DNA of 64,000 nucleotides from Clostridia bacterium (lineage in GTDB: Bacteria; Bacillota; Clostridia; TANB77; CAG-465). Made by a program: the position numbers and the translations under genes. Each line of letters starts with the position of its first letter. The first letter of the stretch is position 1. Shown piece by piece: positions 9,840-46,415 of the stretch. The notes under the pieces are model-generated. The model made no database searches, had not been told where the DNA came from, and saw only the letters and a program-made list of their open reading frames with translations. Location of the stretch: assembly GCA_026415435.1 (NCBI GenBank), contig JAOAHC010000037.1, forward strand, positions 1 through 64,000, in the 5' to 3' direction.

Positions 9840-9852
9840 TATAAATTTGTAA

Positions 9853-10644: not shown

Positions 10645-10780
10645 TAATATTTTCTCCTTTAAAAGCTATATTTCAATAGTATTCTATGTGTTTATCTGTC
10701 ATTTTCACCTATTATATCATATATTTTTATTTTTTAAAAGAATATGAAAGAGATTTCTAACAAACTTTTAGCAATATAAA

Positions 10781-10817
10781 TAAGAAGTAAAGAACTTAAC
10801 GCTTTTACTTCTTATAC
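10781..10817. terminator. Terminator of the DUF4349 gene
   Basis: ATAAGAAGTAAA / TTTACTTCTTAT stem at 10780-10815. The T tract on the minus strand is weak (TTATTTATA). Confidence 0.6.
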
Positions 10818-21916: not shown

Positions 21917-22906
21917 ATGAATATCGTCGTACAAAAATATGGTGGTACATCCGTCGAAAACAAAGAAAAATTAGAAATCGTTTGCGATAAGATATTAGAA
22001 TACTCTAAAAAAAATGCAAAGCTTGTAGTTGTAGTTTCAGCACAAGGTAAAACTACAGACCAACTCATATCAAAGGCTAGTGAGTATTCCTGTAAGCCCT
22101 CAAAACGTGAATTAGATTTGCTTTTAATGACAGGTGAACTCCAAACAGTAGCACTCCTTACAATGATGCTAAAAGAAAGAGGAGCCGATGCAATAGGCCT
22201 TACCGGAGAACAAGCTGGAATTATAACTGATTCTACCTATGGAAGTGCTACCATAGAATCAATATACATAAATAATATCTTAAACTATTTGAATAATAAT
22301 CTAATTGTTGTTGTGGCAGGATTTCAAGGTATAGATAAGTTTGGAAATATAACTACGCTTGGTAGAGGTGGCAGTGATCTGACAGCTGTTGCACTTGCTT
22401 CTGCGCTAAAAGCTAGAAAATGTGAAATATATACAGACGTAGATGGAGTATTTACAGCTGATCCTAAGATAGTTGAAAAATCTAAGCTACTTAGAAAAGT
22501 ATCATATGATGAAATGTTAGAGGCAGCTACTGCAGGAGCTAAAGTACTACACAATCGTTCAGTTAGTGTCGGTAAAAAACATAATTTAAAGATACTTGTT
22601 AAAAATTTTAAAAACTCTAAAACAGGAAGTCTTGTCGAAAAATTGAGTGAAGATGAAATTGCAAGTAATTTAGAAGAAACAAAAGTTAAATTTATAACTA
22701 AAAACGATAATATAACTAAAATATCAATTATTGGAGACCTGCTTATAACTAATAAAAATATAGTTAATAAGATTTTCAATATTGCTTATGAACAAAACGC
22801 TGAAATATATATGGCTGCATTTAGTGAGCTATCTATTAATCTAGTAGTCGATAAAAACAAAGCTGAAGATTTAATAAAAAAACTACATGAAGAATTAATT
22901 TATTAA
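21917..22906 (+). CDS. lysC: Aspartokinase, short form with one ACT region
   Basis: 329 residues from the ATG at 21917 (GAGGAGG nine bases upstream; the ATG at 21908 touches it). It phosphorylates aspartate, the first step to Lys, Thr and Met. The kinase domain shows VVQKYGGTSVENKEKL, VVSAQGKTTDQL, LLMTGELQTVALL, LTGEQAGI, LGRGGSDLTAVALASAL, and EIYTDVDGVFTADPKIV. After about residue 240 there is one ACT-like region of 75 residues; typical enzymes are 400 or more with two ACT domains. No lysine riboswitch is visible upstream. It is a single-gene unit. Reduced feedback control is an inference. Confidence 0.93.
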   Translation: MNIVVQKYGGTSVENKEKLEIVCDKILEYSKKNAKLVVVVSAQGKTTDQLISKASEYSCKPSKRELDLLLMTGELQTVALLTMMLKERGADAIGLTGEQAGIITDSTYGSATIESIYINNILNYLNNNLIVVVAGFQGIDKFGNITTLGRGGSDLTAVALASALKARKCEIYTDVDGVFTADPKIVEKSKLLRKVSYDEMLEAATAGAKVLHNRSVSVGKKHNLKILVKNFKNSKTGSLVEKLSEDEIASNLEETKVKFITKNDNITKISIIGDLLITNKNIVNKIFNIAYEQNAEIYMAAFSELSINLVVDKNKAEDLIKKLHEELIY

Positions 22907-22912
22907 CATAGA

Positions 22913-22957
22913 AAATACACCCAGGTTCAATTGAACTGAACCCAGGTGTATTTTTAT
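22913..22957. terminator. Bidirectional terminator, lysC and the Ig-repeat gene
   Basis: AATACACC-CA-GGTTCA / TGAACC-CA-GGTGTATT, a long stem with one internal mismatch, A and T tracts on both sides. Confidence 0.85.
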
Positions 22958-22970
22958 TTATAGATAAAAT

Positions 22971-25900
22971 TTATAATCCTCTTACGTAATTATTTGCATA
23001 GTAATCTTTATTACCTGCCTTATCTTCTACCCATAAAGATATTTTTACTTGTTGACCATCTGTAACACCAGTTACATTGTCATATAAATATATATAATCT
23101 AACGAGTAATCTGAGAATAATACTAATATTGACTCAGTATCCCTATATAGTTGCTTTTTAGCAAGCAATACGTTATTAGACATATCTTTTACTTCCATAT
23201 ATAGTTTTATATTTACATCATCAACTGTTTCATTTAAAGTAGAATTATCAAATATACCATCTACTCCTATAACACTATCTTCATCATAGAATATTATGTT
23301 ATTCATTAAATTAATTGAGTAATTATCCATATCTATTTCAGGAGCTATATTATCAATCTTATATGTACCAGTTGATCTATTAACAGCAGATTTGTTACCT
23401 GCTTCATCTTCTGAATAATACCATAAATAATATTCGCCATCATACTCAGCACCTGTAAAATCAATTACTGGTGATGCAACATTTGCAACTTGATCATAAC
23501 TACCAGGGGCTGTACTACCATCTGAAGTTATTTTATACATTATTTTTGATATACTCGATACACTATCGCTTGCTTCAACTGTAATTTGAAGTGAATTTAC
23601 ATATGTTGCTGTATTCTCCACATCTATTGAAGCATCGGGATTAGAGTTATCTATTTTATATGTACCAGTTGATCTTGTTTTTGTACTTTCATTACCATTT
23701 CCATCAACTGCGTAGTACCATAAATAGTACTCACCATCATCTCCCAATGTTGGGAAATTAATTGTAGTGTTGTTTACACCATTTACTTCTGTATAATTAA
23801 CTGTATTTTCTGCTACAAGTTTTGGAACAGCTTTATAGAATATTTTTGATATTCCATTAATATCACTAGCACTTATAACTACATCTTTTGATTTAACATA
23901 AGTTGCAGTTTGTTCCACATCTAGACTTACTACTGGTAAAACACCATCTATCTTATATGTACCAGTTGATCTTGCTGGAGTTGAACTATTTCCTGCTGTA
24001 TCAACTACGTAATACCATATGTAATATTCGCCATCATCACCTAGTGTTGGGAAGTCTACTGTTATACTATTTGTATCAGAAACTTCTGTGTAATTAACTG
24101 TATTTTCTGCTACGAGTTTTGGAACAGCTTTATAATATATTTTAGAAATATCTGATACTTCTTCATTTCCTGTTATTACTACACTTTGAGAAGCAACATA
24201 ATTTGAAGTTTCTTCTATACTTAAACTTACACTTGGAAGTGAATTATCTATTTTATATGTACCAGTTGATCTTGTTGGTACAGAACTATTTCCTGCTAAA
24301 TCTTCAATGTAATACCAAATATAGTACTCACCATTATCTGCTACTGTTGGAAAATTAATTGTAACAGTGTCTATATCAGAAACTTCAGTATAGTTAATTG
24401 TACTTTCATTTATCATCTTCGGTACAACTTTATAATATAGTTTAGCTATACTTGAAGTTGCGTCTGTTGCAATTATATTAGCATCACAATTTTTAACATA
24501 TGAAGTAGTTTCTTCAAGATCTAACGATACACTAGGAAGTGTATTGTCAATTTTATATGTACCGTTTGATCTTATTGGAGTTGAACTGTTTCCATTATTA
24601 TCTTCAGCATAATACCAAATATAATATTCGCCATTATCTCCAGCTGTTGGGAAGCTAACAGTAACACTTGATACAGAAGCCGCTTCTGTATAGTTAATTG
24701 TACTTTCAGCTGTCATCTTCGGTACAACTTTATAATATATCTTAGATATTCCAGATACATCATTTGCATCTATATCAACATCTAAACTAGTAACATATGA
24801 ATCAGTTTGAGAAGCACTTAAACTAACCTCAGGATCATTCTTATCAATTTTATATGTACCTGTTGACTTATTAATATCAGAGATATTTCCTGCTGAGTCA
24901 ACTGCATAATACCAAATAACGTATTCTCCATCTTCTGTTATAGCTGCAAAATCAATACTTGCACCTGTAGAATTGATAACTTCGTCATAATTAGTAGGTC
25001 CATCAGTAATACTTGCTGGAAGTATCTTATATTTAATTATTGATATGTCTGAAAGATTATCTGTAGCCGAAATATTTACATTTACATCAGTCACATAATT
25101 AGCTGTAGATTCAACATCTAAACTAACAACCGACTTAGTATTATCAATCTTATATGTCCCAGTTGATTTTTTTGCAACAGATCTATTTCCTGCTACATCT
25201 TCAGCATAATACCAAACGCAATATTCACCATTATATGATCCAATAGATAGATCTACATTAGCATTATTTACATTTGAAATTTCAGTATATGCAGATGGTT
25301 CATCTAAATCACTTGAAGGCACAACTGCATATTTTATCTTAGCCACATTTGAAATATTATCACTTGCAGATATATTTACTGTAGGTGAATGAACATATGA
25401 GCTTGTATTTTCAACATTTAAACTTGCATTTGGAGCTATATTATCTATTTTATATGTACTAGAAGATCTTGTTTGAGGACTAGCATTTCCATTATTATCT
25501 ACTGCATAGTACCAAATATAGTATTCACCATTGTTTCCTATAGTAGGAAAACTTATAGTTGTAGTAGATAAGCCCAATACTTCTATGTATTCTATACTGT
25601 CTTTAGACAATTCTACTGGAACCACCTTATAATATAACTTTGAAATACCATAAAAGTCATTTGCACTAAAATTAACATCTTGAGATTTCACATAATTTAC
25701 TGTTCCTTCTAAACTAAGCGACAGACTAGGAGCAGTGTCATCTATTTTATATGGTCCACTTACCTTTACTTCACACGCATTATTAGATGTATCTACTGCA
25801 TAATACCATATATAATATTCACCATTATTCCCATTTTCAGGAAAAGATACAACACTATTTTTTAAACTAATACTGTTAAATTTTGTAGGTTTGTTTGTAT

Positions 25901-26324
25901 TATCTTTTGATACTGCATAATATATCTTTGACACACTTACATTATCTTTTGCAATAATTTTAACATCAATACTACGTACAAATTTATCTGTACTGACTAT
26001 ATCAACACTAACTTCTGGCAACACTTTGTCGACTACACTATTTGTTGTATCAACATTTGTATTTGGGTCAGAATTAGTATTTGTATTTTGATCTACATTA
26101 GCATCATTATTTCCTTGGTTGTTATTTGTAGAATTACCATTAGAGTTATTATTCTCATTTTCTAAGGCATTCTCCTCATTATTACCATTTAATCCCTGAT
26201 TATGAGTTTTACTCTTATCCCAGGCATCCTTTGCAAAAATTGTACCAAATACTAATAATACAACTACGCCAAAAGCCATAGTTCCTATTATTAATATTTT
26301 AAATAAATTATTTTTATTATTCAT
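22971..26324 (-). CDS. Membrane-anchored surface protein with nine Ig-like repeats
   Basis: 1117 residues. A single N-terminal membrane segment (ILIIGTMAFGVVVLLVFG) acts as uncleaved anchor, followed by an Asn-rich linker (residues about 48-92). Nine repeats of about 95 residues follow, each running from xPxVSLxxExTxxYV through KIYYKVVP and GEYYIWYYAVDxAGNxS to TGTYKID, a pattern seen in OmpL47/Ig-like stalk domains. The last 120 residues are a different beta domain (SINLMNNIIFYDEDSV). There is no sortase or SLH signal. It lies 200 bp past the SLH gene beyond a terminator, in the same direction. A stalk that projects a C-terminal domain is a reasonable inference; ligand unknown. Confidence 0.85.
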   Translation of the reverse strand: MNNKNNLFKILIIGTMAFGVVVLLVFGTIFAKDAWDKSKTHNQGLNGNNEENALENENNNSNGNSTNNNQGNNDANVDQNTNTNSDPNTNVDTTNSVVDKVLPEVSVDIVSTDKFVRSIDVKIIAKDNVSVSKIYYAVSKDNTNKPTKFNSISLKNSVVSFPENGNNGEYYIWYYAVDTSNNACEVKVSGPYKIDDTAPSLSLSLEGTVNYVKSQDVNFSANDFYGISKLYYKVVPVELSKDSIEYIEVLGLSTTTISFPTIGNNGEYYIWYYAVDNNGNASPQTRSSSTYKIDNIAPNASLNVENTSSYVHSPTVNISASDNISNVAKIKYAVVPSSDLDEPSAYTEISNVNNANVDLSIGSYNGEYCVWYYAEDVAGNRSVAKKSTGTYKIDNTKSVVSLDVESTANYVTDVNVNISATDNLSDISIIKYKILPASITDGPTNYDEVINSTGASIDFAAITEDGEYVIWYYAVDSAGNISDINKSTGTYKIDKNDPEVSLSASQTDSYVTSLDVDIDANDVSGISKIYYKVVPKMTAESTINYTEAASVSSVTVSFPTAGDNGEYYIWYYAEDNNGNSSTPIRSNGTYKIDNTLPSVSLDLEETTSYVKNCDANIIATDATSSIAKLYYKVVPKMINESTINYTEVSDIDTVTINFPTVADNGEYYIWYYIEDLAGNSSVPTRSTGTYKIDNSLPSVSLSIEETSNYVASQSVVITGNEEVSDISKIYYKAVPKLVAENTVNYTEVSDTNSITVDFPTLGDDGEYYIWYYVVDTAGNSSTPARSTGTYKIDGVLPVVSLDVEQTATYVKSKDVVISASDINGISKIFYKAVPKLVAENTVNYTEVNGVNNTTINFPTLGDDGEYYLWYYAVDGNGNESTKTRSTGTYKIDNSNPDASIDVENTATYVNSLQITVEASDSVSSISKIMYKITSDGSTAPGSYDQVANVASPVIDFTGAEYDGEYYLWYYSEDEAGNKSAVNRSTGTYKIDNIAPEIDMDNYSINLMNNIIFYDEDSVIGVDGIFDNSTLNETVDDVNIKLYMEVKDMSNNVLLAKKQLYRDTESILVLFSDYSLDYIYLYDNVTGVTDGQQVKISLWVEDKAGNKDYYANNYVRGL
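23340..26040 (-). repeat. Tandem coding repeats of about 290 bp (nine units)
   Basis: The Ig-like units of the 22971 gene. The boundary words for TGTYKID recur (for example near 23356, 23657, 23947, 24256, 24550, 24850, 25150). Units 7 and 8 share a nearly identical stretch (YKAVPKLVAENTVNYTEV), suggesting recent duplication by unequal recombination. Confidence 0.85.
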
Positions 26325-26456
26325 AACAATTCACCTATTTTCATCGATTTAATCCGTTTAAAGATTTACATAAAAATTATATCACAATTCAATAGAAAAA
26401 TCAACTTTTTTTAGCGATTTGCGACAAAATTATGCATATTTCTTACGTTTTGATAA

Positions 26457-26490
26457 TAAAAAATAAGCCGCTAAATTTTAGCGACTTAAA
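26457..26490 (-). terminator. Terminator after the SLH-domain gene
   Basis: Minus-strand AAGTCGCTAAA / TTTAGCGGCTT stem followed by ATTTTTTA. A separate perfect 8-bp dyad AGTCGTTT-N5-AAACGACT at 26513-26533 overlaps the end of the gene. Confidence 0.75.
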
Positions 26491-26523
26491 ATACTCTCTC
26501 TATCTAGATAGTAGTCGTTTGGC

Positions 26524-27900
26524 CTAAACGACTTCACTTATAACTTCAAATGAAAAATCAATACTTTTTCCTTTCAATTCATTTTGTTCCTCGTCAGAAT
26601 CAAATAAATATAGTGTGATTTCATACTCATCAGATGCACCTGGTGGTATAATCACATTATACAGTACAGGTTCTATCACTTCCTCCTTATTAAATAAATT
26701 TTTGAAAAAGTCTATGGGATTATCAAGAAATAATTGCATTGAAGATGATGGTATATTTAAAAGATCCTTAAGAAAAGTTTTTTCAAGCACAATTTGGCTT
26801 GTATCCTTATCTTTGATCTGTATCTGGAAATTTTTGTTGTAATCTGGATTTTCAATAATAGCTTTTTCTATTCTTAACTCATACTTCAAAGGTTGTTGCT
26901 TATTATTTTTTACTATTAATGTATCACTATCCCTCCATCCCGGTAATATATTTTCTATATTACTAAAAAAGTTTGATGTAGTTATTTCTGAAATTGCTCC
27001 AAGATTATTTCTTGTATATAAAGATATTAACGCAACATTAGGATCTTCTCCTGGATCCGGTGTCGGACTAGTACCTCCTCCTCCATTATTTGGTGGTGGA
27101 CTCGAGCCACCTCCTCCATTACTTGGAGGCGGGCTTGTGCCTCCTCCTCCGTTATCTGGTAGTGGTATTGTACCTCCTCCTGGTATTATTTCATCAGTTG
27201 GTGTTGGACTCGGACTTATGCTAGGACTAGGTGTTGGCGTTGGAGATATTGTTGGCTTAGGAGTTGGCGTTTCTTTAGGTTTAACTTCGACATCTTTTTT
27301 AAAATTATCATATCTTAATACTACCGAAGCTCCTTCAGCTCTTGTTATTTTGTCAGCCGGTTTTATCTTTCCTCCATTTCCTAATATTATTCCCTGAGTT
27401 ATTGCCCATTTCATAGGTTCTATAGCCCATTTAGAAACATCTGAAAAGTCTTTGAATTTTGATGAATAATCTATGCTTTCATCAATTTTCTTATCTTTTG
27501 ATGCTTTATACATGAGGACGATTGCTTGTTCCTTGCTAATATATTCATTAGGTATAAAATAGTTGTTTCCGCCTCCTTCAGCTCCGGATCTCATAACTAC
27601 TTCATAGTCTGGATGACTTTTTGGTATATCTTTAAAATCCTTCTTTCTTTTCGGACCATTGACATCCAAAATCCTTACAAATTCGAGTCTTGTCATCTTA
27701 TTTCCAGGCCGAAATGTTCCATCCGAATAACCTTTTATCTTTCCATCTTTCCTTAATTTTTCAACAGCTTCATACATCCAGTCGCCTTTTTTAACATCTT
27801 TATATGCGTAAGCAACATTGTACTTCGAAAATATTGAGCTAAAAATTATAACAATCAGCAAAATCATTGCAAAAAAAGTAAATCTTTTTTTATTACTCAT
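26524..27900 (-). CDS. S-layer homology (SLH) domain surface protein
   Basis: 458 residues. The signal peptide ([17 protein letters not shown]...AYA) is followed by three SLH domains at about 33-200: [19 protein letters not shown] with [33 protein letters not shown]; and [17 protein letters not shown] with [16 protein letters not shown] triads bind pyruvylated wall polymers. A Thr/Pro/Ser linker then leads into GGGGTSPPP-type repeats, and a C-terminal beta domain of about 160 residues follows. It starts 16 bp after sipW, so it belongs to the sipW/TasA-like operon and probably anchors that assembly to the wall. Confidence 0.9.
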
Positions 27901-27916
27901 GGTATAACCACCTCAA

Positions 27917-28570
27917 TTAGTTTAATGTTTTATTAATAAGTCTAGTTTGATTTTTACTACTTTTTTTCCTTACAGATATAATCTGAATAAATGTTAAAAG
28001 GAGTATGGCTATAATTGCAATGCAATTTACAATAGCTTTGTTAGTAACTAAGTGTACAAATACATTTTTATAAATATAGTTTTTAATTTGCATAAACATA
28101 ATATTCACATATCCAGTTTTTGGAATTATAAAGACAACCTTGCCTATTATATCCTTTTGATATACTGAGTACATTTCACCAATATTATTTGCATCACCTC
28201 TCGTATGTATTTTAGTTTGTTCCAGCTTTTTGTCATCACCTTTTTCGATTTTTTCAATTCTATGAGTTATGATCTCTGATGTTTTTGAAACCATACCAGG
28301 AAAATCACTGTACGAAACATAAGATATAATGTCTCCTTCTTTTAATTCATCAATATTTTTTATGGGCTTAACAACTACTGCATCACCATACTTTATATGG
28401 TTTTTATATTTTGCAGACCATTCATTAGTTCCCTGCATTGAAATACCTTTAATATGAAAAAAAGAATATCCTGCTATTTTACCATAAATCTGCAATGAAG
28501 AAATAAGAATTATAGATACTAATATTACGTATAACGCAATTGAACCAATAGTTTTTGATACTTTATTCAT
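27917..28570 (-). CDS. sipW: Signal peptidase I, SipW (ER/archaeal) type
   Basis: 217 residues. It has an N-terminal membrane segment (IALYVILVSIILISSLQIYG) and a C-terminal one (AIVNCIAIIAILLLTFIQII), typical of SipW. The catalytic pattern is the ER type: Ser in KGISMQGT, His instead of Lys in EIITHRIEKIEKGD, and Asp in HTRGDANNIGEM. The usual GSMEP is here ISMQG. SipW enzymes process TasA-like fibre proteins. The start overlaps the upstream TasA-like gene by 8 bp, with GGAGG inside it. This dedicated peptidase with two candidate substrates directly upstream is strong context. Confidence 0.92.
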   Translation of the reverse strand: MNKVSKTIGSIALYVILVSIILISSLQIYGKIAGYSFFHIKGISMQGTNEWSAKYKNHIKYGDAVVVKPIKNIDELKEGDIISYVSYSDFPGMVSKTSEIITHRIEKIEKGDDKKLEQTKIHTRGDANNIGEMYSVYQKDIIGKVVFIIPKTGYVNIMFMQIKNYIYKNVFVHLVTNKAIVNCIAIIAILLLTFIQIISVRKKSSKNQTRLINKTLN

Positions 28571-29993
28571 ATAAGTATCCTCCTGTTAAAAAGTTATTAA
28601 TAAATGATGGTTCATCAAACAAAAAGTTTCCTAACGATGATTCGTTATCCATATTATACATTAATTCCATTTGTGTATTGATTGTAGAATCTGATGTTAG
28701 TTCATCTTGTCGTACTTCTGTACTGGGTGTGATGACTGTTTCATCTGTAGTTCCTGCTTGTGGTTGCTCATCTTCTACTATATCTGTTGTTGAATCTGCA
28801 GGTATTTCTTCAACAGGTTCTATAACTGTTTCGTCTGTAGTTCCTGTTTGTGGTTGTTCACCTTCTACTATATCTGTTGTTGTTTCTGCAGGTATTTCTT
28901 CAACAGGTTCTATAACTGTTTCGTCTATAGTTCCTGTTTGTGGTTGCTCATCTTCTACTATATCTGTTGTTGTATCTGCAGGTATTTCTTCAACAGGTTC
29001 TATAACTGTTTCGTCTGTAGTTCCTGTTTGTGGTTGCTCATCTTCTACTATATCTGTTGTTGTATCTGCAGGTATTTCTTCAACAGGTTCTATAACTGTT
29101 TCGTCTGTAGCTCCTGTTTGGGGTTGTTCACCTTCTACTATATCTGTTGTTGTTTCTGCAGGTATTTCTTCAACAGGTTCTATAACTGTTTCATCTGTAG
29201 TTCCTGTTTGAAGTTGCTCATCTTCTACTATATCTGTTGTTGTATCTGCAGGTATTTCTTCAACAGGTTCTATAACTGTTTCATCTGTAATTCCTGTTTG
29301 TTGTTTTTCGTCTACTATTACATCATTTGTTGTATCTGTTGGTACTTCTTCACCCATAAACATGTTGTCACCATAAGATAATCCACCATCACCAAACATT
29401 GAAAAAAGACTAAACATTGCAAAAGACTGCACTTCATACTGAGGATCATAAGGAATTGCAACTGCTCTTACTGAGAGATTGTATCCTGCACTGAGTCCAG
29501 AAGTATTTGTTGAGAATGCATAAAACTTTATGTATAGTTCACAAGTATCACCTGCTGCCAAGTAATTGTTAATAAATAAATTAGGATCGTTCTTCATGTA
29601 TCCAAGTGTAACTGAAATAGTTGAACTTTGAGTGACAGTATATGCCCTAGCAGCTAATTTATTAGTAAGAAGAGTATCGCCATGTAAATTTGTTATACCT
29701 AACCGAACCTTACAAGGTAGAGTTCCAATATTTTTAATTTTTATATGATAATCCGGCGAAGTATAGTTACTATTAGGATTAATACCTTCATAACTTACAG
29801 GTAATAGTGGTTGATCATTATTATCTGTAAGCTCAATTTTGGCATCTCCAGTACTTATTACAAAACTTTGTGTAGGAGATTTTGCAGTTAATTTTGCGTT
29901 TGACTCATTAAAGGTATTTAGAAAGATAATGAAAAATGCAGTAAATAACAAGAAAGCTCTGTATACCTTTGATCTAAATATTTTTTCAAGCAT
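28563..29993 (-). CDS. TasA-like SipW-dependent protein with acidic C-terminal repeats
   Basis: 476 residues from the ATG at 29993 (GGGGGT upstream; the longer in-frame start at 30095 lacks a site). The signal region (FLLFTAFFIIFLNTF) and the following NESNAKLTAKSPTQSFVIS are like those of the two genes upstream and of SipW substrates generally. A beta-rich TasA/CotN-like domain reaches YNLSVRAVAIPYDPQY at about residue 210. Then come seven 30-residue repeats (consensus PADTTTDIVEDEQPQTGTTD plus ETVIEPVEEI), strongly acidic, and a short tail. It lies downstream of the first TasA-like gene past a partial terminator and is coupled to sipW. Confidence 0.8.
   Translation of the reverse strand: MLEKIFRSKVYRAFLLFTAFFIIFLNTFNESNAKLTAKSPTQSFVISTGDAKIELTDNNDQPLLPVSYEGINPNSNYTSPDYHIKIKNIGTLPCKVRLGITNLHGDTLLTNKLAARAYTVTQSSTISVTLGYMKNDPNLFINNYLAAGDTCELYIKFYAFSTNTSGLSAGYNLSVRAVAIPYDPQYEVQSFAMFSLFSMFGDGGLSYGDNMFMGEEVPTDTTNDVIVDEKQQTGITDETVIEPVEEIPADTTTDIVEDEQLQTGTTDETVIEPVEEIPAETTTDIVEGEQPQTGATDETVIEPVEEIPADTTTDIVEDEQPQTGTTDETVIEPVEEIPADTTTDIVEDEQPQTGTIDETVIEPVEEIPAETTTDIVEGEQPQTGTTDETVIEPVEEIPADSTTDIVEDEQPQAGTTDETVITPSTEVRQDELTSDSTINTQMELMYNMDNESSLGNFLFDEPSFINNFLTGGYLYE
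28726..29350 (-). repeat. Seven 90-bp tandem coding repeats
   Basis: Each unit encodes 30 residues. The plus strand shows TTCAACAGGTTCTATAACTG every 90 bp. Units 3 and 6 share the same variants (GAA for GAT giving PAET, and EGEQ). Units 2-4 and 5-7 thus form a D-E-D pattern twice, pointing to a 270-bp block duplication. Confidence 0.9.
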
Positions 29994-30192
29994 GTTATTA
30001 CCCCCATTATACGAATTTAGTATTTTAAAAGATCTATATAAATTTAAATTTATTTTCCAAATTAATATAAAAAATATATAATATGCCATAAGCATTAATA
30101 ATCTCTTATTAAATAAGTAATTAATCTAATTTTAAAATTAACTCATATATAAAAATAATAATATTTTCTAATTGTATATTAGCAAAATAATA

Positions 30193-30229
30193 AAAATGGA
30201 GGTCATCTATTAAATGACCCCCATTATAA
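30193..30229 (-). terminator. Intercistronic terminator/attenuator between the two TasA-like genes
   Basis: Minus-strand ATGGGGGTCAT / ATGACCTCCAT stem with one mismatch, then TTTTTATTATTTT, just after the stop at 30242. It would favour transcription of the first TasA-like gene over the genes downstream. No gene is seen in 30096-30192. Confidence 0.7.
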
Positions 30230-30241
30230 AACATGCCTTTA

Positions 30242-30928
30242 TTATGGTATCGCTACTGCTACAAAATCGAGATCGAACGATGTATCTTGCCCCTTAAATA
30301 GATTATTGGCAGCTCCTGCACCGTACGTCAAGTCTTCAAAATTTATTTTTGTATTATCAACATCATCAATATAGAGTGTTACTCTTATCTTTGAAATATC
30401 AGCACCTGCTGCTAAAAGACTACCTGATCCTAAGCTTACTGCATCAACATTTGATCCATCAATAGAGTAAGTTTTTTTATCAACTCCTATTGCACTAAGA
30501 GTAGTAGAAGTTCCATAGCTTCCTACATTGTATGCTGCAGTTCCACCTGCATCAGCTATTTTGAATTTTATATTGTCATTTATAACCTTTCCATTAGTAA
30601 GGAAGGTACCTTTTACTAACAATGTAAAATTCGATTTTAATGTCGTCGCCGCATTAGAAGATACATAGATATCGAAGGATTTTTCTGTATTATTATGCGG
30701 CAAGAGATTGCTAAACAATGCTGTCAAATCTTCCTGAGTATAGAGATCTCCGTTAGCAGGATTATGAAAAGTGTAATTCAAATCCTTAAGATCACCAGCT
30801 TGTATGGTTTGAGTACCTGTTGTGGTGTGCTCTGTAAATTTTGCACCTGAATTACTGTTTACTATAACTGCTACAAGAGATAATACAACTGCCATAACAA
30901 CACATAAATTCCGAACGATTTTTTTCAT
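30242..30928 (-). CDS. TasA/camelysin-like SipW-dependent secreted protein
   Basis: 228 residues with GAGGAGATG upstream. The N-terminus has the SipW-substrate layout: KKIVRNLCVVMAVVLSLVAVIVNSN then SGAKFTEHTTTGTQTIQAGD, corresponding to the usual AYFTD...AG-L region. The mature part is beta-rich and ends in FDLDFVAVAIP, a motif shared with the neighbouring 28563 protein (RAVAIP). TasA-type proteins polymerise into matrix fibres by donor-strand exchange; a similar structural role is inferred. Its place just before a strong terminator suggests that it is the major subunit. Confidence 0.78.
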   Translation of the reverse strand: MKKIVRNLCVVMAVVLSLVAVIVNSNSGAKFTEHTTTGTQTIQAGDLKDLNYTFHNPANGDLYTQEDLTALFSNLLPHNNTEKSFDIYVSSNAATTLKSNFTLLVKGTFLTNGKVINDNIKFKIADAGGTAAYNVGSYGTSTTLSAIGVDKKTYSIDGSNVDAVSLGSGSLLAAGADISKIRVTLYIDDVDNTKINFEDLTYGAGAANNLFKGQDTSFDLDFVAVAIP

Positions 30929-30990
30929 AGTTAAAACATCTCCTCATAATTTTATTTTTTATTTTTAATTTTTACCTTAACACAAAGAAG

Positions 30991-31137
30991 TTAACCCGTT
31001 GTTATTGTGAATCCACCTACTACCTCCTCGTCTGTGAACTTAGCATTACTTCCATTAAAGGAGCAGAAAAGTAGCACAAACAAAATTAAAATCAAAACTA
31101 AGAAGATTGGCCATTGTTTTTTCATTTTTGTTTTCAC
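30991..31137 (-). CDS. Micro-ORF consisting of a SipW-type signal region
   Basis: 48 residues from a GTG at 31137 (GAGAGGAGA about ten bases upstream), or 44 from the ATG at 31125. Sequence: a basic start, the hydrophobic WPIFLVLILILFVLLFCSF, then NGSNAKFTDEEVVGGFTITT and a final Gly before TAA. The post-signal part aligns with SNAKLTAKSPTQSFVISTG and SGAKFTEHTTTGTQTIQAG of the two TasA-like neighbours, but the ORF stops where their mature domains begin. It is first in the cluster, 62 bp before the first TasA-like gene. It could be a small secreted subunit/peptide or a truncated paralogue. The 138 bp upstream should hold the cluster promoter. Confidence 0.65.
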   Translation of the reverse strand: MKTKMKKQWPIFLVLILILFVLLFCSFNGSNAKFTDEEVVGGFTITTG

Positions 31138-31276
31138 ATATTTTTCTCTCCTCTCAAAATTTTTTAAAGGACTTATTTAATCTTATGTAAACATTATAAC
31201 ACATTTGTATTTTTATGTCAACGCTTTTTGTAAACTTTTTTAAAATTTATTTACATAATATATTTAGATGTTGTCA

Positions 31277-31316
31277 TAAAAACGTTGATAATTAGATAAC
31301 TATCAACGTTTTTATT
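31277..31316. terminator. Terminator after the AI-2E transporter gene
   Basis: AAAACGTTGATA / TATCAACGTTTT perfect 12-bp stem with T-rich flanks. It lies downstream of the gene ending at 31339 on the minus strand and insulates the TasA-like cluster. Confidence 0.85.
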
Positions 31317-31338
31317 TTAAATATATTTTTTATGTAAA

Positions 31339-32439
31339 TTACTCTATATCATGAATAATTATTTTTTCTTTTTCTTCTTTTTCAAAAGTATATTTCAAAA
31401 TAATCTTAAGGGCAGCTATAACTGGAACCGCTATTATCATGCCAAACATTCCAAATAATAAGTTGAAAATTATAAGTCCTGCAAATACAACTACCGGATG
31501 TAAATTTACTGATTTTGCTACAATATTAGGTTGCAATATATTAGCATCTATAATTTGTATTAGAACTAATAATGCGAATGTTATTATAGCAAATACTACT
31601 CCACCTGTTGCCAAAGCATATAATGTTATTATTATTTCTGATAACAGAGCACCAATATACGGAATTAGATTTAGTACCATTATAAGTATTCCAAAAATTA
31701 TTGCATAGTCTATGCCAAGTATATAGCATAAGATTGTTACCAGTACCCCTACTATAAAGCTATCTAACAACATTCCTTTAATATATGAATTTAAAATATA
31801 GTCTATTTCCATTACCATTTTATATCTTTTTGTATTTTTACTATTTTTAGATAGGAATTTAACAGCTGATTCCTTAAATTTATCCATATCCTTAACCATG
31901 AAAAACGAAACTACAATTGTCGTAAATATTCCTATTATAACACTAATCGCACTTTGTGCTGTATTTATTGAATAATTTAAAGCATTAGTTAAATATTTAT
32001 TTATAAAATCAATATTTTTTATATTAGACGAAATATCTATTATTTGGTTAGACTCCAATCCTAATTTTTCATACAATAAGCTATTTACATTATCTATAGC
32101 ATTTCTATATATATCAGGTAAATCTTTAATTAAATTACCTATTTCAGTTACAAGCATAGGCACAATTAAAGATACTATTAATATGAATATACCAAATATT
32201 ATAAGTAAAGATACTACCGCTGCAGATCTATCTTTAAGTCCAATTTTTTTCAATTTATTGGCAAGTGGCATTGATAACCAACATATAATTATACCTATAT
32301 ACACTGGTACGAGTGCAACTAAAACATTTGATATCTTTTCAGTAATTCCTAGATTTTTTAATACATAGAATATTACTATTGCAGCTCCAACATACATTGT
32401 TACATTTAAAAACTTAAAATTAAATTTTTCTTGTTTCAT
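31339..32439 (-). CDS. AI-2E family transporter (TqsA/PerM-like membrane protein)
   Basis: 366 residues, the normal size. It has about eight membrane segments: two pairs at the start (MYVGAAIVIFYVL; NVLVALVPVYIGIIICWL; AAVVSLLIIFGIFILIVSLIVP), an extracellular helical region (residues 95-150), then the characteristic C-terminal block with FFMVKDMDKFKESA, DSFIVGVLVTILCYILG, LNLIPYIGALLS, and QPNIVAKSVNLHPVVVFAGL. Members have been linked to AI-2 export, ion antiport or other efflux; the substrate is not deducible. It lies 33 bp after the thioredoxin gene in the same direction. Confidence 0.93.
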   Translation of the reverse strand: MKQEKFNFKFLNVTMYVGAAIVIFYVLKNLGITEKISNVLVALVPVYIGIIICWLSMPLANKLKKIGLKDRSAAVVSLLIIFGIFILIVSLIVPMLVTEIGNLIKDLPDIYRNAIDNVNSLLYEKLGLESNQIIDISSNIKNIDFINKYLTNALNYSINTAQSAISVIIGIFTTIVVSFFMVKDMDKFKESAVKFLSKNSKNTKRYKMVMEIDYILNSYIKGMLLDSFIVGVLVTILCYILGIDYAIIFGILIMVLNLIPYIGALLSEIIITLYALATGGVVFAIITFALLVLIQIIDANILQPNIVAKSVNLHPVVVFAGLIIFNLLFGMFGMIIAVPVIAALKIILKYTFEKEEKEKIIIHDIE

Positions 32440-32472
32440 TTAATCCTTCCTCCTTTATCATTGTATAAACTA

Positions 32473-32784
32473 CTATATATACTTTCTAATTGTTTCGATT
32501 ATTTTCTCTTTTTCTACATAACCAATAATTCTATCTTGTTGAATACCATCTTTAAATATTATTAATGTTGGGATTGAGCTCACAGAATACTCATTTGCTA
32601 CAACAGAATTAGTATCCAAATTTATTTTAAGTATAGTAACCTTTTCTTCTTTAGCTATTTCTTCCATAACAGGCATTAAAAGCTGACATGGTGGACACCA
32701 ATTTGCAAAAAAATCTACTACAACTAGTCCCTTTGATTCTATAACTTCTTTTTCAAATTCAGATTCATTAATATTTTTTATCAT
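32473..32784 (-). CDS. trxA: Thioredoxin (CPPC active site)
   Basis: 103 residues with the thioredoxin fold: VVVDFFANWCPPCQLLMPVM, the cis-Pro in SSIPTLIIFKDG, and a C-terminal helix. The active site is WCPPC instead of the classical WCGPC. This variant raises the redox potential in other thioredoxins, so it may favour isomerase or specialised reductase roles; this is inference. There is no signal peptide. It is followed closely by the AI-2E transporter gene. Confidence 0.92.
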   Translation of the reverse strand: MIKNINESEFEKEVIESKGLVVVDFFANWCPPCQLLMPVMEEIAKEEKVTILKINLDTNSVVANEYSVSSIPTLIIFKDGIQQDRIIGYVEKEKIIETIRKYI

Positions 32785-35052: not shown

Positions 35053-36522
35053 TTAATCATTGAAAAACTTACCTTCTCCAATAAATCCATCACAAAAATC
35101 AAGATATGGTTCGCCTTCTTCTTTTGTTCTAGGCGCATACAAATATATCCGATGGCCTATTATTATATTAAACTTAGCAAGTGCATACACAGTTGGACTA
35201 ACATTATATACTATACCATCTGGATTTGATTTATAAAATAGTATAAAGTTAATCCAAATTGGAACTCTTTTACTAAATTCTCTAAGGCTATCTATACTAT
35301 TTCCTACTTGTAGTCTTATTATTTCAGAATTGATTTTAGCGTATTCTATTAGAGTTCTTGGATCTGGAGACATTACAACATAAGTATCGTATTTTTTACA
35401 TCTTATGTTTGGCTGTATATAGTCATAAGTTAAAAATCTACTAACATATTTATCAAAATATGCTACAATTCTTGCTATATTTTTTCTACTAATGAATCTT
35501 TTGTCTACACTAAACTTTAAATCAAAAATAAGAGGTACTATCCCATTTGCAATTTCCAATATTTCCTTAAGTTGTGAAGCACTTTCTATTTTTACTTTAT
35601 TCGCGCATGATTTAGGTTGACCTAGTTTATCACTATATTTATCATCATGGTAAACTATAAATTCAAACCTATTTTTTTCCAACCTTATAGTTACATCAAT
35701 CTCAGCTGCATATCTCTTACTCTCATCTTGGGTATTTTGATTTAATTTAGCTATATATTTTATAGCCTCTACACTATTTTCACAAATATTAGGATCTACT
35801 ATCATTCGATGAGCTTTTAAATGTGTATTTAACCAATGATCGTCCTTTATTCTAGAATTAGATTTATTCGATGCATACCACATTTTTTTAATCAGATTTT
35901 TCAATTTGTCCTCAGATTCTAATCCAATCAAAATATCAGTTAGGCTCGGTAAATCTGAAACATTAAAAAGTTTAGTTGGCATATTCTTATAGTCTTTATC
36001 TTTGCAGTAGTCAAATCTCTTTCTTAGAATATTTGTTGAAAGAAATACTTTTTTTCCAAATATATTTTTTAGTTTAATATAATTTTTAAACTTAGCTGTT
36101 TGAAAGTATACTGTCCCACTGTAGTTTAAAAGAACATTTTCAAGTTTCTTTAGAAACTTGTCATTTATATTTGTTTTCACATCTAAAATTATTGGTACTC
36201 TTCCGTCTATTACTGAAATTGCCTGTTCAAGTGTAGGTACATAGTTTTTTGTTTTTTCAATCATATATTTATTAATTATATCAAAATTGCAATTTTCTAT
36301 TTTGCCTGGTATTCCAAGTTTATTAAACATGTATTTATCATGAAAACACACAATTGAATTATCTTTTAAATACCGGACATCTATTTTAATTGCAAGACCC
36401 ATCTCAACTGCATTTTCAAAAGCTTTAATTGTATTTCCTGGGCAGTCCCTATGTAAGCCTTCATCTGCAATTAATAATTCATATATTTCTTTTGATTTTT
36501 TTGATATATATGGTAGTATCAT
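35053..36522 (-). CDS. Tandem glycerophosphodiester phosphodiesterase-like protein, first domain degenerate
   Basis: 489 residues, two GDPD-like (TIM-barrel) domains. Domain 1 (residues about 15-210) begins LLIADEGLHRDCPGNTIKAF, where the canonical AHRG is ADEG, so the catalytic His and Arg are lost; the metal-binding ELD is KIDV, although FHDK survives. Domain 2 (residues about 225-489) retains LKAHRMIVDP, ICENSVEAI, AAEIDV and FIVYHDD, which fit the active residues. There is no signal peptide. The 36612 gene upstream is a close relative of domain 1. Enzymes of this fold hydrolyse glycerophosphodiesters or related lipids; here domain 2 alone could be active. Confidence 0.8.
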   Translation of the reverse strand: MILPYISKKSKEIYELLIADEGLHRDCPGNTIKAFENAVEMGLAIKIDVRYLKDNSIVCFHDKYMFNKLGIPGKIENCNFDIINKYMIEKTKNYVPTLEQAISVIDGRVPIILDVKTNINDKFLKKLENVLLNYSGTVYFQTAKFKNYIKLKNIFGKKVFLSTNILRKRFDYCKDKDYKNMPTKLFNVSDLPSLTDILIGLESEDKLKNLIKKMWYASNKSNSRIKDDHWLNTHLKAHRMIVDPNICENSVEAIKYIAKLNQNTQDESKRYAAEIDVTIRLEKNRFEFIVYHDDKYSDKLGQPKSCANKVKIESASQLKEILEIANGIVPLIFDLKFSVDKRFISRKNIARIVAYFDKYVSRFLTYDYIQPNIRCKKYDTYVVMSPDPRTLIEYAKINSEIIRLQVGNSIDSLREFSKRVPIWINFILFYKSNPDGIVYNVSPTVYALAKFNIIIGHRIYLYAPRTKEEGEPYLDFCDGFIGEGKFFND

Positions 36523-36611: not shown

Positions 36612-37145
36612 TTAATGTACTAATCTAAATTTTATAAAATTGAACCTTTTCCTAAACAAATTAATTATCCAAAAAACCTTATCTTTCCATATTTTCTTTG
36701 CTCTAAAATATGCAATTATATTTTTAACATGAAAATAATAGACCCCTTCATATTCGTCCATTATTTTAATTAGTTCTTTTCTAAAATTTAAATTGAAAAA
36801 ACCTTTTATCTCTATTAAAACTGGAACCTTTGAATCAATTAGCATTAGTGCCTCTTTAAGTGTCGGAATTTTTTCATGTGTAGGTTCAAGACTTAGAATT
36901 TTTATTTCAGTTAATTCAACATCATTTACTTTTTTATTTATTTTAGTAAGTCTTTTTAAATTTCTGTCATGAAAGCATATAATGTTATCATCAGCAAGTA
37001 TTCTTATATCTAATTCAATTGCAAGTCCAAAATTTATAGCATTTTGATACGCCGTAAGAGAGTTTTCTGGACAATTTTTATGATAGCCTCTATGTGCTAT
37101 AATCCAATCATATATTTGCCTGGATTTTTTTGGCTTATAAAACAT
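36612..37145 (-). CDS. Glycerophosphodiester phosphodiesterase family protein, short
   Basis: 177 residues; full GDPDs have about 240. All N-terminal catalytic elements are intact: WIIAHRGYHKNCPENSLTAY, ELDIRILADDNIICFHDRNL, and the LKEALMLIDSKVPVLIEIKG strand with its metal-binding Glu. The C-terminal barrel strands are missing. The last segment (KVFWIINLFRKRFNF) matches KVFLSTNILRKRFDY in domain 1 of the 35053 protein, where that protein carries on. The gene thus looks C-terminally truncated after duplication. AAAGGAGGAG gives a good start, about 90 bp before the tandem gene. Confidence 0.82.
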   Translation of the reverse strand: MFYKPKKSRQIYDWIIAHRGYHKNCPENSLTAYQNAINFGLAIELDIRILADDNIICFHDRNLKRLTKINKKVNDVELTEIKILSLEPTHEKIPTLKEALMLIDSKVPVLIEIKGFFNLNFRKELIKIMDEYEGVYYFHVKNIIAYFRAKKIWKDKVFWIINLFRKRFNFIKFRLVH

Positions 37146-40162: not shown

Positions 40163-40657
40163 ATGAAAAAGAGTACTATAGTATATTGCATAATCATTGT
40201 GGTTTTAACAATTTTATTTTCCTCTATAATAAATCGAAATTTAGTTATTACTGACTCTAGGTTAGTTAAGTCATTTGAAACCCTAATAATTACTATTTCA
40301 ATAATAGTTATGGGAACATTTTTAGGTATTGTTATAATTTGGCTTAAAGATGATATTATTAGAATACTAAATCAATTCAAAAATTCTAGATTAATTAGAT
40401 GTATACATAGTAATAAAAAAATAAGAATAGCCACAAATCGTATAATTATGATTACACTTCTATTAACTCCAATAGCTATTATTCTTTCTACATTTTTTGA
40501 AAATAGTACTGTATTTCATACTATATTTATATTTATATTATTTATAGCATCAATAATTTGTCTATTAAGAGGCATATTTTATAAGGAAGATTCCAATTTG
40601 TCTTTTATTACATCTTTTTTATCTGCTCTAACAGCTATTTTAAATTTATTAATGTGA
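40163..40657 (+). CDS. Multi-span membrane protein, function unknown
   Basis: 164 residues with GGAGG and a consensus promoter. Four or five membrane segments: residues about 5-22, 36-59, 91-111, 114-135 and possibly 145-163. A basic cytoplasmic loop sits between the second and third (ILNQFKNSRLIRCIHSNKKI). I recognise no family. It is divergent from the KAP NTPase, and the spacer between them carries a dyad. A functional link is possible but only inferred from arrangement. Confidence 0.75.
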   Translation: MKKSTIVYCIIIVVLTILFSSIINRNLVITDSRLVKSFETLIITISIIVMGTFLGIVIIWLKDDIIRILNQFKNSRLIRCIHSNKKIRIATNRIIMITLLLTPIAIILSTFFENSTVFHTIFIFILFIASIICLLRGIFYKEDSNLSFITSFLSALTAILNLLM

Positions 40658-42929: not shown

Positions 42930-45900
42930 CTACGGTATAACATATATAGGTACAGACTGTCCAAAACTTTGCGACACGTTTCCAGCCTTATCTATTGCTA
43001 CACCATAATCTATTGAAATAGTAAAATCTCCAGTATCTGTTACATTTGATATGGCCACAAGTCTTACATTTGACGTACCACTAGTACTTAATGTTCCTTT
43101 AACTCCACCATGCCTATATAGTTTTACATTTGACGGTGACAAAGTAGTTGAATCAAAATTATCATCTATAAATGTTACTAAAAATTCTGCTACTTCACCT
43201 GTTCTAATAGGAGTCCTAATAGGTACTACACTAATCTGTGGAGGTGTATTATCTACTATTATAGTTTGCGATGGTCCTGTTTGTATAGCTAAATTTCCTG
43301 ATCTATCTTGTGCTGTTCCTGCAGCAATTGTGATAGATAATGTACCATCTCCAGTAAAGTTACTAAGCATTACAGTATAATTATTAGCATATCCATATGC
43401 ATTAATAGACGCATTTGCTGTTCCAGTTTTATTTAATATAACTTTTGCTGTAGTTAAATTAGAACTATCAAAATTTGCATCAGAATAAGTTATAGAATAA
43501 GTAACTGTATCATATGATTTTGCATATGCTTTGCTAGGTGAACTTATTGTTATAACTGGAGGTGTAGCATCAACATTTAATACTGACGATGTAGCACCTG
43601 TACCCAAATTACCCGCTTTATCAATTGAAGTATTATTTGCTACAGTTATTCCTAAAGTTCCTTCACCTGATATATTACTTAAAGTAACTGTTCTAGTATT
43701 TCCAGTTCCTGATACAGAGACAGTTGCATTTGCAGTTGCAGTCTTATTTAATGTAATATCTGCACTTGTAAGGGTTATATTGTTAAGGTTAATATCGTTA
43801 TATGTTAGAGTATATGTTACCGTATCATTTAATTTCGCAGAAGACTTACTAGGAGCACTTATGCTTACAGTTGGTTTTGTATTATCAACAATAAAGCTTT
43901 GTGATGGTCCTGTATAGTATGAACCATTTTGAGCTATATCAGTTGCTGTACCATAAGCTATAGATATTGATAAGCTGCCATCTCCCGTTATATTACTTAA
44001 TGTAAGAGTTCTTGTATTACCCGTTCCAGATAATGACATATTTGCATTTGCTGTTACCTGTCTATTTAAAGTGATACCTGATGTAGTTAAAGTACAATTG
44101 TAGAAGTTTGTATCAACATATGTAATATTATATGTTACAGTGTCACCTGTTTTAGCGTATGCTTTACTAGGAGCACTAATATTTACTGTAGGCCAAGTGT
44201 TATCTACAACTAGTATACCTGAAGGTCCAAAACCTGGTACTAAATTTCCATTTTTATCTCTTGCAGTACCTGCAGCTATTGAGAATGATATTGTTCCTTC
44301 TCCTGTTACATTTCTTATTTGAACTGTTCTTGTATTTCCATTTCCATATACTAGTACACTAGCATTAACTGTACCTGTCTTATTTAAAGTTATATCTGCT
44401 GCACTAAGAGTTGAACTTGTAAAATTCGTTGGATCATACGTAACAGTATAATCTGCAGTTTCTCCTGCTCTTATACCCAATTTACTTGGAGCACTTATTG
44501 ATATTATCTGTTGAATAACTGTTCTTAACACAAATGCATTAGATTTAGCGACAACTTGATTGCCTGCATTGTCTGCTGCCTTTATCCAAAGATAATATGT
44601 TCCATCAACCGCACCAGCTTTTGAAATATATGTATTATTTTCAAATGATGTCCAACCTATAGTCGGAGCCACTGAGTTTTGAGTATCCCATACATATAGC
44701 AAACTACTATTAACTAATCCACTTGTTCCTGCATCACTCACGATAACCTTATCTTTTAATTCAGTAGCATTAGCAGCTCCGCCAAGTTCAAAGCTTACAA
44801 GTGGTGCTAGTTTATCTATATTTGATATTATTAATGATGATTGAGAGCTCTGATTTCCAGATCTATCAAAAGATCTTGCATATACAGTTGTATTATTTAG
44901 TATCGAAATATCTCCAGTATATGTATACCAATTAACTAAATCAGTGCTATACTCTCCTACTTTTGTATCAGATGAATACTTAATTTTAACTGTAACTGCA
45001 TTTTTTGTCCATGTTGTAGGTGTCACTGTAATTATAGGACTAACAGGTATTGTGCTATCTACATTAAATGAAGTAGATGGCCCAGATTTTGCTGAATAAT
45101 TTCCTACTAAATCAACTGCTGTATTATCTAATATTGATATAGATAATTTTCCTTCTCCTGATATATTACTAAGAGTTACTATTTTTGTATTTTGCTTTGT
45201 AGCACTATTTGTTACTGCTATATTTGCATTTGCAGTCGAAATTTTATTTAAAACTATATCTTGTACACTTAGAGTTATATCACTAAGATTATCATCTGTA
45301 TATGTAACTTCATATGTTACTGTATCGCCTGTTTTAGCAGTTATAAGGCTAGGTGAACTAATATTTATTTTTGGTGCAGTATTATCAATATTGGTTATTT
45401 TTTTACTAACAACATTGCTTAATTTATTAAGTTTTGCTACTCTAGCATAAACTGTTATATTTTCATTTATTTCAAACTTATCACTATATACCTGCCACGT
45501 TCTTGCGTCATCAACACTATATTGTATTACAGAATTAATTTCAATTGTGGTTATAGTTACTTCCACTTTTGATGATATATCAGTTCTATTTAATGCTATT
45601 TGTGGTTCACTTATAGGATAATTATTTATAACTTGGAATGTATCTTTAGAAATATAACTTATATTATTTGTATTATTCTGAGTATTCGAAATTGCTTGAG
45701 ATTTAATCCTTAGTCTGTAATTTCCATTAACTAAAGTTGTTGTATCTACATATGTTCTAACATTACGAACTGTTGATGTATCGGTTCCGCTAACTTCTCC
45801 AATTGTTATAGCTGGTTGAGTTTCTATTAAATTTCCGTCAGCATCAACTATATCAATTTTATTTGCAAGATTAACTGAATTTATTGGTGCAGGTGAGGAA

Positions 45901-46415
45901 AATGTAAGTAAAAACATAACTGCATCACTAGATTGTACAATAGGTTTATCTGGAGAAGAAATATCTACAGTAATAGTTTCTGTAACTTCAGATGGTATTA
46001 TTTCTGTAGGTATATCTAGCTCCTTAGCCCAATTTTTTTGATCTAAATTTTCACCTTTATATATTAATTTTCCTTCATAAACTTCATAAAAATCTATATA
46101 TGTACTATTCTTTAAAGCTGGTATTATATCAGTTATATTTATGCTAGTATCTTTACCATCATTATATGTAACAGATGTTTTATCCGCGTATAGTAAGTTT
46201 TCATTGAATGTTCTTGAAGAATTTATCTTTTTATTATTAATATATAGCTCTAAATCAGTTTGAAATGTTTTAGAATCACTTAAAAACTTTTCTTTAACAG
46301 CATAGTTTATAGCCACATCTCTAATAAAAATTATTGTTGTTGTGGATAAAATAATAAGTATAATTACTGTTATTACTAAAGCTATTAAAGATATTCCCTT
46401 ATATTTATAATTCAT
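42930..46415 (-). CDS. Large prepilin-like secreted protein with Ig-like repeats
   Basis: 1161 residues. The N-terminus is a prepilin-like segment, YKGISLIALVITVIILIILS, again without Glu at +5. The following region (FLSDSKTFQTDLELY, INITDIIPALKN, GKLIYKGENLDQKNWA) is paralogous to residues about 40-140 of the 6677 protein. About ten beta-sandwich modules follow. From roughly residue 580 they form a regular series of about 105 residues: ISAPSKxxAKxGDTVTYxxT, LNKTxTANAxVSVSGTGN, TVTLSNISGEGTLxI, GPSxxxxVDN. It ends without any anchor motif (SFGQSVPIYVIP). AAAGGAG lies about 15 bases before the ATG. Inferred role: surface adhesin or fibre. Confidence 0.83.
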   Translation of the reverse strand: MNYKYKGISLIALVITVIILIILSTTTIIFIRDVAINYAVKEKFLSDSKTFQTDLELYINNKKINSSRTFNENLLYADKTSVTYNDGKDTSINITDIIPALKNSTYIDFYEVYEGKLIYKGENLDQKNWAKELDIPTEIIPSEVTETITVDISSPDKPIVQSSDAVMFLLTFSSPAPINSVNLANKIDIVDADGNLIETQPAITIGEVSGTDTSTVRNVRTYVDTTTLVNGNYRLRIKSQAISNTQNNTNNISYISKDTFQVINNYPISEPQIALNRTDISSKVEVTITTIEINSVIQYSVDDARTWQVYSDKFEINENITVYARVAKLNKLSNVVSKKITNIDNTAPKINISSPSLITAKTGDTVTYEVTYTDDNLSDITLSVQDIVLNKISTANANIAVTNSATKQNTKIVTLSNISGEGKLSISILDNTAVDLVGNYSAKSGPSTSFNVDSTIPVSPIITVTPTTWTKNAVTVKIKYSSDTKVGEYSTDLVNWYTYTGDISILNNTTVYARSFDRSGNQSSQSSLIISNIDKLAPLVSFELGGAANATELKDKVIVSDAGTSGLVNSSLLYVWDTQNSVAPTIGWTSFENNTYISKAGAVDGTYYLWIKAADNAGNQVVAKSNAFVLRTVIQQIISISAPSKLGIRAGETADYTVTYDPTNFTSSTLSAADITLNKTGTVNASVLVYGNGNTRTVQIRNVTGEGTISFSIAAGTARDKNGNLVPGFGPSGILVVDNTWPTVNISAPSKAYAKTGDTVTYNITYVDTNFYNCTLTTSGITLNRQVTANANMSLSGTGNTRTLTLSNITGDGSLSISIAYGTATDIAQNGSYYTGPSQSFIVDNTKPTVSISAPSKSSAKLNDTVTYTLTYNDINLNNITLTSADITLNKTATANATVSVSGTGNTRTVTLSNISGEGTLGITVANNTSIDKAGNLGTGATSSVLNVDATPPVITISSPSKAYAKSYDTVTYSITYSDANFDSSNLTTAKVILNKTGTANASINAYGYANNYTVMLSNFTGDGTLSITIAAGTAQDRSGNLAIQTGPSQTIIVDNTPPQISVVPIRTPIRTGEVAEFLVTFIDDNFDSTTLSPSNVKLYRHGGVKGTLSTSGTSNVRLVAISNVTDTGDFTISIDYGVAIDKAGNVSQSFGQSVPIYVIP

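Follow-up and report, generated by a model that had tools for sequence, protein, structure and literature searches.

Described fibre systems and layout of the locus

In fibres of Bacillus subtilis, every TasA subunit lends its N-terminal strand to the following one, whose beta-sandwich is thereby completed (PMC9674648). The accessory protein TapA supplies the first strand and sits only at the filament start, and biofilm formation is intact in a strain whose secreted TapA consists of residues 44-57 alone (PMC10151520). In Clostridium perfringens, the sipW-bsaABCRSD cluster produces BsaA matrix filaments and contains an internal terminator, for which read-through has been reported (PMC7395162). 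It is not settled how the cell holds on to TasA-type fibres, and little work has been done on them outside Bacillus.

The window analysed here, a stretch of 64 kb (contig C42), belongs to a genome of 1.45 Mb that is 94% complete and has no genus-mate among the relatives listed in this analysis. On its minus strand lie, in order, a micro-ORF, a first TasA-like gene (TasA-like-1), an acidic-repeat TasA-like gene, a SipW gene and an SLH gene, followed by an Ig-repeat gene. The features of the cluster are as follows.

31193-31221, minus strand: predicted sigma-70 consensus promoter, TTGACA-17-TATAAT with TG before the -10 (sequence match 12/12)
30991-31137, minus strand: micro-ORF encoding a signal peptide and a 17-residue donor-strand-like mature peptide, AKFTDEEVVGGFTITTG
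30242-30928, minus strand: TasA-like-1 (228 aa), SipW-type N-terminus ...NSGAKFT (window-free profile, E 2.1e-9)
30195-30225, minus strand: terminator-like hairpin in the gap between TasA-like-1 and the acidic gene (14 pairs, T-rich tail)
28563-29993, minus strand: acidic-repeat TasA-like subunit, 476 aa from its likely start (window-free profile, E 2.0e-8)
27917-28570, minus strand: SipW-type signal peptidase, 217 aa (TIGR02228, E 1.5e-10; NF046067, E 8.4e-10)
26524-27900, minus strand: SLH-TasA protein and likely anchor, 458 aa (SLH match, E 3.5e-26; TasA-like profile, E 3.6e-11)
26464-26488, minus strand: terminator-like hairpin 3' of the SLH gene (hairpin scan)

Every part of the gene order proposed by the sequence-only reading is thus present in that order on one strand: the SipW gene overlaps the second TasA-like gene by 8 bp, the SLH gene follows the SipW gene after 16 bp, and the nine-repeat Ig-like gene (22971-26324) lies beyond the terminator-like hairpin 26488-26464. 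That reading had also called the locus a complete clostridial fibre or matrix system. The analysis supports a clostridial surface fibre cluster of the SipW/TasA type, whose likely wall anchor is the SLH protein; its completeness is unproven. Taken as a whole, the cluster probably makes a wall-anchored protein fibre of the TasA type (camelysin family).

Compared with tapA-sipW-tasA of B. subtilis, the locus likewise combines SipW with TasA-like subunits, places a small accessory gene first, and has a TasA fold, as modelled for the C-terminal domain of the SLH protein, and a putative N-terminal strand common to accessory and subunit. It differs in an accessory reduced to a signal peptide and a strand, lacking the Ig domain of TapA, in the addition of a likely SLH wall anchor and an acidic-repeat subunit, and in its transcription, since two units seem likely rather than one. 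Because the hairpin at 30225-30195 parts the micro-ORF and TasA-like-1 from the acidic, SipW and SLH genes, the cluster is not plainly one operon. A terminator inside the cluster, in the window a predicted one, is shared with sipW-bsaABCRSD, a SipW-dependent clostridial filament system that, like the proposed fibre cluster, includes accessory secreted proteins. In contrast to that cluster, the window cluster has no adjoining two-component genes and carries a likely SLH anchor, whereas an S-layer anchor is unmentioned in the report on the C. perfringens system (PMC7395162). A further likeness is found in CapP-CalY-TasA of Bacillus cereus, where fibre assembly is under the control of an accessory protein that has a repeat tail and stays with the wall; CapP, however, is a DUF4047 protein, and SLH is absent as a term from the report (PMC13082335).

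The promoter upstream of the micro-ORF is the sole 12/12 consensus match in 10 kb (22500-32500), an interval in which the overall number of promoter-like matches does not exceed that of shuffled sequence. Two observations concern the surroundings. A gene for an AI-2E-family-like membrane protein lies near the TasA/SLH cluster both in the window (31339-32439) and in the Clostridiaceae locus L065 (7416-8552), possibly by coincidence. Elsewhere on the minus strand of the window, two adjoining genes (35053-36522 and 36612-37145) appear by eye to be glycerophosphodiester phosphodiesterase-like, the second being short (177 aa) and possibly truncated.

TasA-like subunits and the SipW-type peptidase

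A TasA-like profile was derived from 79 named SipW loci and one further genome, G538, with PF12389-matching clostridial proteins and their relatives as seeds and no window sequence among them. It matched three of the 110 window ORFs and none of their 110 reversals: the SLH protein at aa 305-453 (E 3.6e-11), TasA-like-1 (2.1e-9) and the acidic protein (2.0e-8), these E-values applying to a database of 220 sequences, the ORFs and reversals together. TasA-like domains are present in all three large proteins. The earlier description of the two subunits as TasA-like is therefore borne out by a profile free of window sequences. The two go unrecognised by curated models: neither subunit gave a useful direct match in Pfam or NCBIfam, including PF12389 and NF046066, and no window protein reached a curated TasA, camelysin or SipW-signal cut-off. 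The genome itself gave no TIGR04088 match at E 0.01.

When family profiles that included the window proteins were compared with PDB sequences, TasA (5of1/5of2) and the TasA fibre (8aur) ranked at the top, followed by the archaeal AbpX. The AlphaFold2 model of TasA-like-1 was weak (pLDDT 59.5, residues 1-17 below 50) and its Foldseek search uninformative. A phmmer match of this protein to phage T4 gp5 in the PDB was rejected as composition-driven. Apart from the own genome, none of 290 genomes of the order matched TasA-like-1 and none of 398 genomes of the phylum matched a profile of the two window subunits; TasA-like-1 gave no match among viral contigs either. Both subunits read ...AVAIP at the proline box, and Q232, the glutamine conserved in the TasA proline box, is apparently not kept.

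The most likely start of the acidic protein is ATG 29993 (MLEK..., preceded by GGGGG), which shortens it from 510 to 476 aa. Its TasA-like domain occupies 29526-29951 and about seven copies of a 90-bp unit lie at 28735-29352; its net charge is -74.

The SipW-type peptidase displays, by direct reading and alignment, the catalytic Ser (GISMQ), His (ITHR) and Asp (TRGDANN) motifs. It scored 41.2 bits against TIGR02228 (cut-off 51.85) and 38.5 bits against NF046067, the equivalog of Bacillus SipW (cut-off 190), and is on sequence grounds classed as a diverged relative outside the Bacillus equivalog. About ten extra residues separate its catalytic Ser-Met from the conserved Gly-Asp, unlike in four aligned relatives. 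Owing to these extra residues and to scores below the curated cut-offs, its activity is an assumption here. A scan of the genome contigs with the window SipW as single query gave no match.

From these parts we infer the processing and co-assembly of the fibre, its anchoring and polarity, and the role of the micro-peptide. In the proposed fibre, SipW would free the products that bear putative SipW-type signal peptides, namely TasA-like-1 and the acidic subunit, and probably that of the micro-ORF as well. The N-terminal strand thus set free on each subunit would slot into the open beta-sandwich of the one that follows, in the manner of B. subtilis TasA. TasA-like-1 and the acidic-repeat protein would be the extending subunits, the acidic one bearing a long charged tail.

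The micro-ORF at the head of the cluster

The micro-ORF can be read from GTG 31137 (48 aa) or from the in-frame ATG 31125 (44 aa), with its predicted mature part at 30994-31044. The mature peptide AKFTDEEVVGGFTITTG aligns without gaps to AKFTEHTTTGTQTIQAG of TasA-like-1, with 8/17 identities, and to AKLTAKSPTQSFVISTG of the acidic protein, with 7/17. An ungapped N-terminus, AK[FL]T...G17, is common to all three SipW-type products, and the micro-ORF stops where the strand ends. In shuffling controls, p was about 2e-4 for the alignment with TasA-like-1 and about 8e-5 for that with the acidic protein; the joint value without the AKxT motif was 0.003. A profile of TasA-like-1 and the acidic protein, from which the micro-ORF had been left out, had a single match in the genome besides these two, namely the micro-ORF (E 8.8e-4), and the micro-ORF sequence as query returned the acidic protein as its best genomic relative (E 0.008). 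Another apparent relative, at 40163-40279 of the window, was rejected as a chance match to a multi-helix membrane protein. Identities with the acidic gene amount to 18/37 at first, 24/37 at second and 8/37 at third codon positions, a distribution that fits similarity between proteins and not recent similarity of DNA.

Judged from its sequence, the micro-ORF product is not a member of the TapA family, being a strand that lacks an Ig domain, and is at most an analogue of tapA1-57. The latter consists of a signal peptide and 14 residues, the micro-ORF of a signal peptide and 17. Because TapA cut down to tapA1-57 still supports biofilm formation in B. subtilis, the micro-ORF may be a natural minimal initiator: its product, little more than a strand, would begin the fibre as the natural counterpart of minimal TapA. 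We advance this role tentatively, its chances falling somewhat short of even. Should the micro-ORF work in this way, the truncation made by experimenters would have a counterpart in a natural gene, and the initiator model of TasA could be tested with a 17-residue peptide.

There is an even chance that the micro-ORF yields, instead, no working product and is either what truncation left of a TasA-like gene or a leader that is translated; the remaining genes would then make an ordinary anchored TasA-type fibre. The micro-ORF is unique to the window genome, a single sequence; a search of about 80 SipW loci and of the surroundings of the SLH fusions gave nothing comparable, nor, except for one frame at a contig end, did the SipW-signal matches in 245 genomes. 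Against a remnant or leader, on the other hand, stand the perfect consensus promoter and the good ribosome-binding site directly upstream, the end of the frame where the donor strand ends, and the following 60 bases, which hold no TasA-like remnant in any frame. The codon-position pattern also fits a similarity kept at the protein level, although the divergence could predate a truncation. As a leader or attenuator in particular, the micro-ORF was rejected, because its structure does not go beyond that of shuffled sequences (z 0.20); no leader-typical hairpin and no Rfam match were found.

The SLH-TasA protein and its relatives in Clostridia

The SLH protein comprises a conventional-looking signal peptide, an SLH region (27313-27804), a Pro/Gly/Ser linker and a C-terminal TasA-like domain (26542-26988). 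Pfam PF00395 scores two repeats (E 3.5e-26), between which a degenerate third can be recognized by eye. Its C-terminal 178 residues match a protein adjoining SipW in G538 (E 3.4e-6; BLASTP 2e-9), itself a clear member of the camelysin family (PF12389, E 7.8e-12) with a SipW-type signal (TIGR04088, E 9.7e-7). The model of the C-terminal domain is of moderate confidence (pLDDT 70.4, pTM 0.63; residues 1-17 below 50), and its best PDB match by Foldseek is the cryo-EM fibre of TasA, 8aur (E 2.4e-5, prob 1.00), with a modest TM-score of 0.47 by query. Weaker matches include a type 1 pilus tip protein, archaeal bundling pili, archaeal threads and cannulae. The archaeal bundling pili (AbpA/AbpX) and archaeal threads resemble the proposed fibre in being strand-exchange beta-sandwich filaments; we know of no SLH anchor in either.

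Given the profile match and the match of the model to 8aur, the SLH protein can be described as a wall-binding module fused to a TasA-like domain. The sequence-only reading, which had cast the SLH protein as the anchor, had missed this domain (aa 305-453), and its presence strengthens the case for a likely wall anchor. The same reading had looked to the predicted folds of the 28563 and 30242 products for a resemblance to TasA; it is the C-terminal domain of the SLH protein that matches the TasA fibre, while of those two products that of 30242 was modelled poorly. For a wall partner of the anchor, a pyruvylated polymer made by CsaB, support is incomplete: the genome holds two other SLH loci, and a check for CsaB yielded one distant pyruvyl-transferase-like match, at 40.6 bits against a cut-off of 213.1.

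In the proposed fibre, the SLH-TasA protein would be exported by its ordinary signal peptide and bind a wall polymer through its SLH repeats. Because its TasA-like domain has no free N-terminus, it could accept a strand and would not readily donate one; capturing the strand of the last subunit, the C-terminal domain would both end and anchor the fibre.

It is possible, although we lean against it, that the SLH-TasA protein starts fibres as a wall-bound TapA analogue presenting a strand, or is mere self-complemented decoration. The junction between linker and domain loosely resembles a subunit N-terminus in alignment, and the known accessory TapA is a strand donor whose Ig fold is complete (PMC10151520). 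The lack of a free N-terminus at the TasA-like domain speaks against a starter, as does the placement of residues 1-17 of the modelled fragment, which is not confident (pLDDT below 50); the best Foldseek match is to TasA in its fibre form, a result that cannot tell the two roles apart. Returning to the SLH-TasA protein as terminal anchor, a further version of the model would be that the locus combines a donor-only micro-peptide, which starts and caps the fibre, with donor-plus-acceptor subunits and an acceptor-only SLH-TasA anchor. We consider this version rather unlikely; if true, this one locus would supply every component that a minimal strand-exchange polymer needs, dispensing with an usher and with a separate folded chaperone.

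It is improbable that the products are surface proteins whose TasA-like domains stay monomeric or oligomeric and form no fibres: many SipW-linked TasA-like proteins of Clostridia are uncharacterised and the long acidic tail is unlike TasA, but the N-terminal strand layout is common to SipW-type products, and the characterised relatives (TasA, CalY, BsaA, archaeal bundling pili) form filaments.

An SLH protein adjoins SipW in 3 of the 79 SipW loci, namely in Caloranaerobacter azorensis DSM 13643 (L043), a Clostridiaceae MAG (L065) and a Clostridia MAG (L048); in the first two, a TasA-like domain is followed by three SLH repeats. A profile of the anchor-type TasA domain, built from L043, L065 and G538, found matches in 11 of 391 genomes of the class, and SLH repeats stand behind the TasA-like domain in nine of the 391, from two families (f25, f72). 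In one genome (G417), the SLH-TasA gene is split over two overlapping frames. Most of these sites adjoin SipW and TasA-like genes, and several are cut by contig ends. Other Clostridia thus have SipW, TasA-like and SLH-TasA genes side by side, and the synteny check proposed by the sequence-only reading, like that of the fold, did not refute its interpretation. The proteins of the other two matching genomes (L113, 481-1452; L114, 6599-7933) carry an anchor-type TasA domain with a C-terminal hydrophobic tail and basic end and no SLH repeats, which suggests that anchoring modules are exchangeable.

Like the window, the SLH-TasA clusters (L043, L065, L010/G538, L105, L106 and others) combine SipW, TasA-like subunits and an SLH-TasA protein, and many have an acidic protein with a low-complexity tail as neighbour. 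As a specific mark of SLH clusters this tail is weak, because 19 of 78 SipW loci have an acidic neighbour under loose criteria. Since the combination of SLH, TasA-like and acidic proteins recurs in Clostridia, it is not unique, and the earlier impression of a non-standard arrangement is only half correct. What is peculiar to the window is the reversed anchor, with SLH first and the TasA-like domain last where other Clostridia have the TasA-like domain N-terminal and SLH C-terminal, and the micro-ORF, which the other SLH-TasA clusters lack. The sequence-only reading had noticed neither this reversal nor that the micro-ORF ends with its donor strand. A literature search, which left most subscription journals outside its reach, located no published description of SLH together with TasA, camelysin or SipW, and the SLH-TasA anchor, though recurrent, is apparently undescribed. 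Joined to a fibre-subunit domain in several clostridial genera, the wall-binding module offers a direct, testable anchor.

Some of these clusters have features of their own. In clusters with SLH-TasA proteins, the SipW-type peptidases encoded at L109 (708-2006), L110 (4106-5311) and L112 (1444-2658) measure 400-430 aa and have a long extension at the N-terminus. Between the TasA-like and anchor-type genes of L114 lies a gene (8009-10807) for a 932-aa acidic repeat protein with EEPSSDVNEKEEIKT repeats and a SipW-like N-terminus, SYYANSF, a parallel to the acidic subunit of the window.

The Ig-repeat protein (22971-26324, minus strand) has nine repeats of OmpL47-type domains (NF047446, E 1.5e-32); its N-terminus looks like a membrane anchor, and it lacks a sorting signal. 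Its suggested role as a stalk finds no backing: it has its own signal-anchor, lies beyond the terminator and contains no TasA-like domain, and comparable Ig-like repeats occur in other proteins of the same genome. At 42930-46415 of the window, the minus strand encodes a protein of 1161 aa in which an N-terminus resembling that of type IV pilins, MNYKYKGISLIALVITVIILIIL, precedes a large number of Ig-like repeats, and repeats comparable to these are found in an SLH protein of the window genome (L117).
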